From positions 1-64,000 of the forward strand of contig CANRFZ010000012.1 in assembly GCA_947630025.1 (NCBI GenBank): DNA of 64,000 nt. The letters are read 5' to 3'. Position numbers and translations under genes: made by a program. The notes under the pieces are model-generated. The model was not told where the DNA came from and did no database searches. It worked only from the letters and a program-made list of their open reading frames with translations. Of the stretch, positions 44,279 to 48,973 are shown one piece after another. The first letter of the stretch is position 1; the number at the start of each line of letters is the position of its first letter. This DNA is from an uncultured Lachnospiraceae bacterium. GTDB taxonomy: Bacteria > Bacillota > Clostridia > Lachnospirales > Lachnospiraceae.

Positions 44279-45013
44279 ATGACAGAGAAAGGCAGTCACA
44301 TGAATATCGCTATGATTATCGCGGGCGGTGCGGGCAGCAGGATGCACCAGGATATCCCCAAACAGTTTTTGACCGTAAATGAAAAACCGGTCATTGTCTA
44401 TACGCTGGAGGTTTTTCAGAAACACCCGGCGGTGGACGAGATTATTGTCGTCTGCATCGAGGGGTGGGAACAGATCTTGTGGGCCTATATCCGGCAGTTT
44501 AATCTCTCTAAGGTGACTGCGGTGGTTCCCGGCGGCGACTGCGGACAGGCGTCGATCTACAACGGGCTTGCGGCGCTGGAGCCGAACCATGAGGCGGAGG
44601 ACATTGTCCTGATCCATGACGCGATCCGTCCGATGGTCTCCGAGGAGATTATCTCCGACTGCATCAATACCACGATCGAGCATGGGTGCGCGGTGGCGTG
44701 CATCCCCTGTGCGGAGGCGATGCTGGTGACGGAAGATCAGGAGAGTTCCGGGCGTATTTTTACACGGGAAAATCTTAAGAGAACCCAGACGCCGCAGGGA
44801 TTCAAAATCGGGCAGCTTCTGGAAGTGCACAGGAGGGCCAGACAGCAGGGAATCGTCAATTCGGTGGCGTCCTGCACCCTGATGGTGGAGATGGGCGAAA
44901 AGGTTTATTTTTCCAAGGGTTCGGAAAAAAACCTGAAGCTGACCACCGTGGAGGACATCGATATTTTTAAGGCGCTGCTGCTCGCCAAGCGCGCCGAATG
45001 GCTGAAGGAATAG
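44279..45013 (+). CDS. IspD/TarI-family cytidylyltransferase
   Basis: MNIAMIIAGGAGSRMHQDIPKQFLTVNEKPVIVYTLEVFQKHPAVDEIIVVC...VLIHDAIRPMVS. Confidence 0.88.
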   Translation: MTEKGSHMNIAMIIAGGAGSRMHQDIPKQFLTVNEKPVIVYTLEVFQKHPAVDEIIVVCIEGWEQILWAYIRQFNLSKVTAVVPGGDCGQASIYNGLAALEPNHEAEDIVLIHDAIRPMVSEEIISDCINTTIEHGCAVACIPCAEAMLVTEDQESSGRIFTRENLKRTQTPQGFKIGQLLEVHRRARQQGIVNSVASCTLMVEMGEKVYFSKGSEKNLKLTTVEDIDIFKALLLAKRAEWLKE

Positions 45014-46054: not shown

Positions 46055-47266
46055 ATGGGGAAATTTTACATCAAGAGCATGATCGGCGAGGTCGCGTCGG
46101 GAATCAGTCGGCTGATCGAACAGAATGTCATCCGACATGACAGGCGTGTCATCCTGTACGGACTGGACAGATATGCGTTCGCGATGCGCACGATTCTGGC
46201 CAATCTGGGGTTTCACAATGTGGAGTGCTATCTGTCCGACGACGAGGCGGCGGTCATCGCCGTGCAGCGGGATATCGAGAATTTCAGGTGCCGGTTTCTC
46301 AACACGTCGCAGGAACTGATCCGGGCGGCTATGGTAACGGAGCGTTTGTGCCCGTTTGACGATGGGGCGCTGATCCTCATAGCGTCGGCGGATTACGGAC
46401 AAATCCGGGAGCGGCTGGAAAAGCTGGGATACCGTGAGGAGATCCATTTTTACAAAGTCTGTGATTTCGCAGATCCTGAGCTTCGGGCGATGACTGCGGG
46501 CGCGGCGGAGATGACGCTTCGCGAGATACAGGATATCCTCAAGGGGATATTGGCCTATGTGGACGGCCTGTGCGCGCAGCATCATCTGCGGTACTGGGTC
46601 TGCGGCGGCACGTTATTGGGAACGGCCCGCCACCGGGGATTTATTCCATGGGATGACGACGCGGATATCTTTATGCCGTGGCAGGATTATCTGCGGTTCT
46701 TCGCACTTTTCCAAGAGACGGAGCGCTTCACGGCGCTGGGGATGGGAACCGGGGAGGTCAACGACTTCTGCGATCCTTTTGCCAAGATCGCGGATAAGAG
46801 GACGCTGCTCATAGAGGATATCGGCACCGTCAAAAAAATAAATCCGCTGGCGCTGGATGTGTTCCCGCTGGTGGGGATGCCCGCCGACGCCGAACAGAGG
46901 AAGTTGTTCTTTGCGCAGTATCAGGAGCTGAACCGGTCGATCTGGCAGGATTTTTATGCCAATAATGGTGATCCGTCGGTGTTTGCCGGATGGTACCGGA
47001 AACAGAGGGAGTATCTGGGCCAGTATGATTTTGATGCGTCGGAATGGGTGGGCGTGCTGGGTACGGCATACGGAGAGCGGGATTGTACCGGACGCGGCGT
47101 ATATGACACCACTGTCAGAATGCCGTTTGAAGATATCGAAGTGAATGTTCCCGCGGGATACCGGGAGTATCTTGACAACCTGTACGGCAGAGACTGGATG
47201 AGTCTTCCGGAGGAAAGCAAAAGACATTCTCATCACAATGTGGTTTCTTTCTGGCGTCCTGTATAA
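46055..47266 (+). CDS. LicD-family phosphotransferase with N-terminal Rossmann-like module
   Basis: VILYGLDRYAFAMRTILANLGFHNVECYLSDDEA...AQHHLRYWVCGGTLLGTARHRGFIPWDDDADIFMPWQDYLRF. Confidence 0.88.
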   Translation: MGKFYIKSMIGEVASGISRLIEQNVIRHDRRVILYGLDRYAFAMRTILANLGFHNVECYLSDDEAAVIAVQRDIENFRCRFLNTSQELIRAAMVTERLCPFDDGALILIASADYGQIRERLEKLGYREEIHFYKVCDFADPELRAMTAGAAEMTLREIQDILKGILAYVDGLCAQHHLRYWVCGGTLLGTARHRGFIPWDDDADIFMPWQDYLRFFALFQETERFTALGMGTGEVNDFCDPFAKIADKRTLLIEDIGTVKKINPLALDVFPLVGMPADAEQRKLFFAQYQELNRSIWQDFYANNGDPSVFAGWYRKQREYLGQYDFDASEWVGVLGTAYGERDCTGRGVYDTTVRMPFEDIEVNVPAGYREYLDNLYGRDWMSLPEESKRHSHHNVVSFWRPV

Positions 47267-47295
47267 GATTGTGGATGAAGTTAAGGTTGTGCGGC

Positions 47296-47425
47296 TGGTA
47301 TCAAAGGGGCTGCCGCTAAGCGGCATAGACATCTTGCACAAGAAATCAGCATGGCAAGCTAGCTTGCCAGATGATTTTTGTGCAAGATACACGCATCACT
47401 CCGTGATGCGTGCCCTTTGATACCA
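47296..47425. repeat. cloverleaf-like structured element (outer stem plus three internal hairpins)
   Basis: TGGTATCAAAGGGGC / GCCCTTTGATACCA outer arms; TGCCGC-TAA-GCGGCA; TCTTGCACAA...GGCAAGCTAGCTTGCC...TTGTGCAAGA; ACGCATCAC-TCC-GTGATGCGT. Confidence 0.9.
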
Positions 47426-47545
47426 GTATCCAGTATCCAGTATCCACCGGAAACCCCGGCGGACACACATTTTCGTCATTGTCTGTACAGAGAACATCAC
47501 AGGCAGTCCTGTAAAATACAAATGTTCTCAGAATGGGGATCGATT

Positions 47546-48208
47546 ATGGAATTTGAATTGATGGCGTCCATGATGTGCGCCGATTATGGAAATCTGGAAA
47601 GGGAAGTCAGAAATCTGGAAAAGGGAGGCATAGACTCTTTTCACATCGATATTATGGACGGGCGCTACGTACCGAACTATGCGATGTCGCTCAACGATAT
47701 GCGCTATATAGCAAGCGCCACGGACAGGCCGCTGGACGTGCACCTGATGGTGGAACATCCCAACAACACGATAGCGTTATTTCTGGAAAATCTGCGCAGC
47801 GGTGACACGGTATACATCCATCCGGAGGCAGAATACCATCCGTCCACTACGCTGCAGAAAATCATCAACGCGGGCATGGTGCCGGGGATCGCGATCAATC
47901 CGGGCACCAGCATAGAGACCATTATGGAGATGCTCCAGATCGTCAGAAAGGTGCTGGTCATGTCTGTCAATCCGGGAAATGCAGGCCAGATGTATCTGCC
48001 GTATGTGGGCAATAAAATTCTGAAACTCCTCGCCATGAAGGAAGAAATGGGCTTCGAGATTTATTGGGACGGCGCCTGCGGCGCGGACAAGATCCAAGCC
48101 TATGCGCCCAAGGGCGTAAAGGGGTTTGTGCTGGGCACGACGCTTCTGTTCGGCAAGAAAGAGCCGTATGAAGTGACGTTAAAGAACATACGGAACATGA
48201 AATTTTAA
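47546..48208 (+). CDS. ribulose-phosphate 3-epimerase family protein
   Basis: LMASMMCADYGNLEREVRNLEKGGIDSFHIDIMDGRYVPNYAMS...LDVHLMVEHP...VLVMSVNPGNAGQMYLP. Confidence 0.87.
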   Translation: MEFELMASMMCADYGNLEREVRNLEKGGIDSFHIDIMDGRYVPNYAMSLNDMRYIASATDRPLDVHLMVEHPNNTIALFLENLRSGDTVYIHPEAEYHPSTTLQKIINAGMVPGIAINPGTSIETIMEMLQIVRKVLVMSVNPGNAGQMYLPYVGNKILKLLAMKEEMGFEIYWDGACGADKIQAYAPKGVKGFVLGTTLLFGKKEPYEVTLKNIRNMKF

Positions 48209-48250: not shown

Positions 48251-48973
48251 ATGAATGTGGCGTTACTTTTGTCCGGGGGAACCGGAACACGGATCGGATC
48301 GGACATACCGAAACAGTATATGGAGGCAGGGGGCAGGCCGATCATCGTGTACTGCATGGAGACGCTTTTTCTGCACTGCGGAATCGACGCGGTGCAGATT
48401 GTCGCGGACGGACCGTGGCGGGAACTGCTCCTTGGGTGGGTGGAAACGCTTGCAGACGGAAAATGTCCGTCGGCAAAGGATAAATTCCGGGGATTCTCGA
48501 ACCCCGGCGCCAACAGGCAGCTCTCTATCTGTAATGGGCTGGCGGATATCCGGCAGTATGCGGAGGAAACGGATTATGTCCTGATCCATGACGCGGCCAG
48601 ACCGAGGTTGTCGGAGCAGCTGATAACGGCGTGTCTGGACGCCGTCAGAGGACATGACGGCGTGCTCCCGGTGCTGCCGATGAAAGATACCGTCTACAGG
48701 AGCGGCGACGGCGCCACCATCACGTCTCTGGTGGACAGGGAGCAGATCTACGCAGGGCAGGCGCCGGAACTGTTCCGGCTGGGCCCCTATGATGCGGCGA
48801 ACCGTGCGCTGCTGCCGGACAGAATACGGACGATCCACGGCTCCACCGAACCGGCGGTGCTGGCAGGCATGGATATTGCCATGATTCCGGGGGACGAGGA
48901 AAACTTTAAGATTACCACCGCCGCGGATCTGGCCAGATTCCGGGAACTTACGTCGCATCTACAACATAGCTGA
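48251..48973 (+). CDS. second IspD/TarI-family cytidylyltransferase
   Basis: MNVALLLSGGTGTRIGSDIPKQYMEAGGRPIIVYCMETLF...YVLIHDAARPRLSEQLI. Confidence 0.88.
   Translation: MNVALLLSGGTGTRIGSDIPKQYMEAGGRPIIVYCMETLFLHCGIDAVQIVADGPWRELLLGWVETLADGKCPSAKDKFRGFSNPGANRQLSICNGLADIRQYAEETDYVLIHDAARPRLSEQLITACLDAVRGHDGVLPVLPMKDTVYRSGDGATITSLVDREQIYAGQAPELFRLGPYDAANRALLPDRIRTIHGSTEPAVLAGMDIAMIPGDEENFKITTAADLARFRELTSHLQHS

Follow-up and report, generated by a model that had tools for sequence, protein, structure and literature searches.

Miniature mobile repeats offer the closest described counterparts of the element reported here. QMITE2 of Coxiella burnetii, a bacterial MITE, is short, non-coding and intergenic, with terminal inverted repeats (TIRs), 7-9 bp direct repeats and a stable predicted fold; the bacterial MITE review that describes it makes no mention of Clostridia or Lachnospiraceae (PMC10969869). 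Our element lies in a window of 64,000 nucleotides from an uncultured Lachnospiraceae bacterium (contig CANRFZ010000012.1), and its relatives in two further genomes, G251 and G315, have the short non-coding form, TIRs, direct repeats and stable fold of QMITE2-type MITEs. Unlike those, it presents one four-way-junction core that occurs within different TIRs, across genera, and is inverted at common loci; neither a target duplication nor a second copy, moreover, is seen for the copy in the window. We class the element as a new repeat family. That its core inverts and is common to different TIRs makes it a variant among MITEs.

Other bacterial repeats, including bcr1 of Bacillus cereus, ERIC and RUP-type repeats, measure approximately 100-160 bp and have conserved predicted folds. 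They belong to different hosts, and none of them is known to us to have a four-way junction with a GCTAGC tip. REP and BIME sequences, linked with RAYT transposases, are likewise dispersed palindromic extragenic repeats that often lie near gene ends (PMC2817692, PMC3733652). REPs are described as 20-40 bp long with GTAG/CGTC-type tags (PMC3733652), in contrast to the four stems and ~120-135 bp of the present element, which falls outside that 20-40 bp palindrome range.

A mutational process is also relevant. Template switching at quasi-palindromes homogenises arms and inverts spacers between short inverted repeats (PMC8604942), and is able to give rise to hairpins and preserve them through compensatory changes (PMC8794818). 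The same two signatures, arm homogenisation and spacer inversion (see also PMC7202029), are found in our repeat; however, template switching is a process rather than an element, and the spacers inverted in that yeast work comprise a few bases (PMC8604942), as against ~100 here. Searches of non-subscription literature found no description of this repeat.

A near-perfect cloverleaf between two genes

In the window, 132 bases are predicted to fold into a near-perfect cloverleaf, with an outer stem and three hairpins meeting at a four-way junction (Table 1). The minimum free energy is -82.9 kcal/mol, compared with -40.5 +/- 3.6 kcal/mol in dinucleotide shuffles, none of which (0/200) folded as well. 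The linkers at the junction read GC, TAGAC and A, and the 5' outer arm is composite, AAAGGG being part of the conserved core and CTGGTATC being copy-specific. The original prediction had named the outer stem, the three hairpins and the 16-bp palindrome: all are present, their coordinates displaced by one or two bases at most, the fold is indeed far stabler than its shuffles, and the proposed placement between licD and an Rpe-like gene agrees with the positions of the open reading frames (ORFs). The element starts 28 nt past the stop codon of the LicD-like ORF, in the sense direction of both neighbours.

Table 1. Features of the cloverleaf element and its neighbours, in window coordinates
Feature	Position	Strand	Basis
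Whole cloverleaf element	47295..47426		fold z -11.8; homologues in other genomes
Outer stem, 5' arm CTGGTATCAAAGGG	47295..47308		pairs with 3' arm, 14 bp perfect
Hairpin 1, TGCCGC-TAA-GCGGCA	47311..47325		fold; 6/6 pairs covary in relatives
Linker TAGAC, unpaired	47326..47330		fold; largely conserved among relatives
Hairpin 2, long imperfect palindrome	47331..47388		fold; covariation
Hairpin 2 tip, perfect 16-bp palindrome GGCAAGCTAGCTTGCC	47353..47368		sequence; relatives' alignment
Hairpin 3, CACGCATCAC/GTGATGCGTG	47390..47412		fold; 10/10 pairs covary in relatives
Outer stem, 3' arm CCCTTTGATACCAG	47413..47426		perfect 14-bp match with 5' arm
Upstream neighbour, LicD-like ORF	46055..47266	+	name judged from sequence
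Downstream neighbour, ribulose-phosphate 3-epimerase-like (rpe-like) ORF	47546..48208	+	name judged from sequence

A dispersed repeat family of gut Lachnospiraceae

A second species of the window's genus has a copy with 76% identity and a conserved fold, though not at a related locus, and a covariance model built from these two copies identified the element in a third species. Across a partial sample of 397 Lachnospiraceae genomes the covariance search was positive in 14, some matches being weak, and most of the genomes sampled lacked the element. Copy numbers can be high: G251 gave 88 matches over both strands, corresponding to ~45 places, and roughly 6-13 places were found in each of G132, G382 and G315. 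When 392 genomes representing the order were searched with the model, almost nothing was detected outside the family. Scanning GTDB genomes for the pattern returned 93 stretches, nearly all from Lachnospiraceae; the other names (e.g., Undibacterium, Aquidulcibacter and Chloroflexi) gave no match with the model and occurred in about the number expected by chance. No match was found in phage and plasmid collections compared at the DNA level, and no viral contig carried the core pattern. The analysis throughout treats ORFs as genes, establishes orthology by BLAST of flanking sequences and draws on sampled copies. Judged by sequence comparison, the element is a dispersed non-coding repeat family of gut Lachnospiraceae, so far uncatalogued. 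The covariance search proposed with the original prediction thus recovered relatives at unrelated loci with strong covariation, so the element is neither unique nor devoid of compensatory changes; as for further copies, many are dispersed in relatives' genomes, and BLAST found no second copy in the window's own 2.64-Mb assembly.

Terminal repeats, target duplications and a candidate transposase

The family has the attributes of a MITE, being short, devoid of coding capacity and dispersed in several copies, with TIRs common to the copies in G251, C77, 3-1, G315 and others. In G251, elements of ~200 bp hold the core within the TIR TTGAGTTTCCCCATTTTT, which has 144 matches in that genome, and are bordered by direct duplications of 8-10 bp. 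A GGGGCTGTCGCAC-type TIR encloses the core at L071, L080, L168, L178 and L182, and a GATGTYRGGGTC-type TIR occurs with 7-bp duplications at L018 (TTGTTAC), L036 (ATTTATT), L137 (ATAATAT) and L044 (ATATCAT, determined from the flanks). Hence one core is found with at least three different terminal repeats, as well as nearly naked, and target duplications across relatives span 7-10 bp. Outside G251 we also observed one clean empty site, in which AATTTACAAG at L181 corresponds to TTTACAAG/TTTGCAAG around the element at L068. The MITE-like nature suggested at the outset is therefore upheld by the relatives, through their dispersed copies, terminal repeats, target duplications and empty site.

Several variants accompany the complete elements. 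Three 61-bp MITEs of G251 (L087, L088 and L089) possess the same TIRs and their own target duplications and have no cloverleaf, and a version with hairpin 3 only also occurs in this genome. One-ended copies are numerous in G251 (e.g., L092, L098, L099 and L101-L104), with a good TIR on one side and the cloverleaf cut at varying points. Additionally, another inverted-repeat sequence interrupts the hairpin 3 loop in two copies of RGIG4815 (L140:5924-6051 and L132:5763-5898)—a nested insertion.

G251 further contains an apparently intact 1570-bp IS4-like element (L204:400-1969, G251:C11), the ends of which, TTGAGTTTCCGC/GCGGAAACTCAA, match the TTGAGTTTCC MITEs. It encodes a 417-aa DDE transposase matching Pfam DDE_Tnp_1, with NCBIfam IS4-type matches below their cut-offs. 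An imperfect duplication, GATTGTCCTT/GATTGTACTT, flanks the IS4-like element. A search of nine further carrier genomes detected no relative of this transposase at E<=1e-20; if the model holds, the remaining TIR classes must therefore depend on different transposases. The window genome is among these nine, and the linked transposase sought there was not found with this single IS4-like query in an assembly that is 82% complete.

Inversion of the core and extension of the outer arms

At each of the four loci where the sister genomes G382 and G790 both have the full core, its alignment is better in inverted than in direct orientation, with identities of 97 versus 72%, 83 versus 73%, 76 versus 69% (the weakest pair) and 81 versus 67%. 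Two more cross-species pairs, L163/L156 and L139/L147, are likewise inverted (93 versus 78% and 85 versus 67%). Independent insertions in opposite orientations are unlikely at four loci of one genome pair, and are possible for L163/L156 and L139/L147.

In the stand-alone class, to which the window copy belongs, the stem often extends outward into copy-specific inverted repeats. Outer-arm scores in RGIG4815 were 52, 29, 18, 17 and 16, where pairings with the flanks of other genomes average ~7-8; the mean was 14.2 in G790 versus 9.1 with swapped flanks, with a smaller excess in G382 (13.3 versus 10.6). G315 gave no excess over swapped flanks, since its copies have one common TIR. A perfect, copy-specific inverted repeat of 52 bp surrounds the core at L179:2961-3222. 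At the locus common to G382 and G790 as L221/L217, the arms differ strongly between the sisters yet are still partly inverted repeats. The element at this locus directly adjoins an apparent tRNA-Leu gene, as judged by sequence.

The outer-arm pattern is compatible both with template switching where the element lies and with its insertion into palindromes. We favour the former because some copies lie between operon-like genes, where a long terminator stem would be unexpected. These operon-like positions, together with outer arms that are still inverted although they differ from sister to sister, weaken the notion that every copy entered a terminator hairpin already in place. Of the options first put forward, a recombination or replication structure is partly borne out by the homogenisation of arms and by the inverted cores at common loci.

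A probable mobile DNA repeat with proposed self-templated pairing

Taken together, we consider it likely that the cloverleaf represents a non-autonomous palindromic DNA repeat of MITE-like character, of which it is one copy, with near-perfect pairing maintained at the DNA level by template switching. The constant part would be a core of ~120 bp, able to form a four-way junction on either DNA strand, carried between TIRs; its insertion, which duplicated 7-10 bp of the target, would most likely be the work of DDE transposases supplied in trans. Replication would stall at the hairpins and the polymerase would switch template, copying one arm onto the other and thereby generating apparent compensatory changes; the same switch could extend the inverted repeat into the flank or invert the core. 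The family, its TIRs, target duplications, empty site, covariation, lack of strand bias, arm rewriting and inversion can be read directly from the sequences; we infer template switching as the mutational cause where arms and orientation are concerned, the transposase that moved the elements, and the origin of the window copy in an insertion of this kind. With a common core, changing ends and inversion at common loci, the birth of MITEs and mutation templated by hairpins become open to testing in gut bacteria, of which some have isolate sequences.

Four points tell against this account. The window copy has no recognisable target duplication and no TIR common to other copies—its inverted ends are its own 14-bp outer stem only—and it is single in its genome, where no relative of the G251 transposase was detected. 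The inverted spacers are far longer than those in the cited yeast work, as noted above. That many genera have one and the same four-way layout amid differing flanks could also reflect selection for a function. Moreover, the copies are not independent, and flipping would weaken the strand test described below.

One alternative is that the DNA structure serves a specialised enzyme by which the core is moved or flipped, be it an invertase, a transposase of the hairpin-binding HUH/IS200-like type or some other recombinase, with a secondary role for the DDE terminal repeats. This appears unlikely, although it would accommodate a core that occurs nearly naked or with any of several terminal repeats, is inverted at 4/4 common loci and retains a conserved tip and several conserved stem positions. 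Against it, an unsystematic look noticed no candidate recombinase gene beside the copies examined, and there are surviving copies in which hairpins 1 and 2 are missing or the tips are altered. Site-specific recognition at the outer arms is further argued against because these vary from copy to copy. It is similarly conceivable, if improbable, that the cloverleaf is a structural module whose junction is a target for either an enzyme or the replication machinery itself; by duplicating its flanks in inverted form it would give rise to new MITEs, and by also flipping it would gain one set of TIRs and transposases after another.

Gene context and transcription termination

The position of the copies relative to genes differs between classes, as far as approximate, ORF-based placement allows. 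Copies in the mouse-gut set, mainly of the TTGAGTTTCC class, often have divergent genes on either side (25 of those placed), and none of ~22 in the stand-alone class, window copy included, does so; the latter tend to follow stop codons, many of them closely, and may therefore incidentally affect the 3' ends of mRNAs. Like intrinsic terminators, the window element offers a strong stem close after a stop codon; unlike them, it has no T-run 3' of the outer stem, is four-way and has relatives between divergent genes. Within it, a T-rich tail follows just one + strand stem, the hairpin 2 tip, and this tail is formed by the tip's own 3' arm. A bidirectional terminator or mRNA 3'-end stabiliser, arising from a gene-end hairpin grown elaborate or from an element inserting into terminator hairpins, would explain the placement of the stand-alone class and the copy-specific inverted repeats of its outer arms. 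We regard this explanation as quite improbable in view of the missing T-run, the frequent placement of the TTGAGTTTCC class between divergent genes and the copies within apparent operons (e.g., panB-panC at L146).

Covariation without a strand preference

An alignment of 25 representatives gave 96.4% paired cells, with double changes in 32 of 37 pairs; none of 500 shuffles equalled this (0/500), and slid controls of the alignment reached 35-44% paired. G-U pairs, summed over copies, numbered 198/5180 in the sense and 229/5318 in the antisense reading, a comparison that is supportive rather than absolute because the copies are non-independent and the core can flip. In the stems, no strand-specific preference for G-U over A-C was found. 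Where sister species share a site (L121/L162 and L145/L129), the core differences lie almost wholly in hairpin 2 and consist of matched multi-base changes in both arms, the flanks being mostly 96-100% identical. Orientation relative to tandem neighbouring genes was about even, and Rfam 15 yielded no match at the gathering score and only miRNA-like chance matches at a relaxed threshold.

This strong covariation does not point to RNA, because G-U pairs have no strand bias, arms are rewritten in pairs, the core inverts at shared loci and gene orientation is even. A new structured non-coding or cis-regulatory RNA on the + strand, in which selection on the RNA fold would have produced the compensatory changes, is accordingly very doubtful: the very stable fold, the covariation and the sense-direction position of the window copy just past a stop codon speak for it, and the symmetric G-U pairs, even orientation, core inversion, matched block changes, lack of an Rfam match and absence from most Lachnospiraceae genomes sampled speak against it. 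The structured RNA offered among the initial possibilities thus found no backing as a strand-specific one, whether in Rfam, G-U asymmetry or a fixed gene orientation. RNA-style covariation in a mobile DNA repeat, apparently free of RNA selection, is a warning for covariation-based RNA discovery.

The window copy and its surroundings

Within the family of mobile DNA repeats proposed above, the window copy is best read, from its sequence and context, as an isolated relic between the licD-like and rpe-like genes, and is probably immobile now; taken alone, it would not pass as a MITE. An empty site was sought within the genus, where the rpe-like gene is conserved, and no clean one was found because the sequence upstream of that gene is unmatched. 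As a by-product, the stable predicted fold could, within a licD-rpe mRNA, change RNA decay or downstream expression. Two ORFs resembling IspD/TarI nucleotidyltransferases (44279-45013 and 48251-48973, names judged from sequence) flank the segment with the licD-like and rpe-like genes. Finally, a short direct repeat, CCAGTAT/TATCCAG, of about three units lies at 47420-47442, directly 3' of the outer stem, and may be a trace of slippage or insertion.
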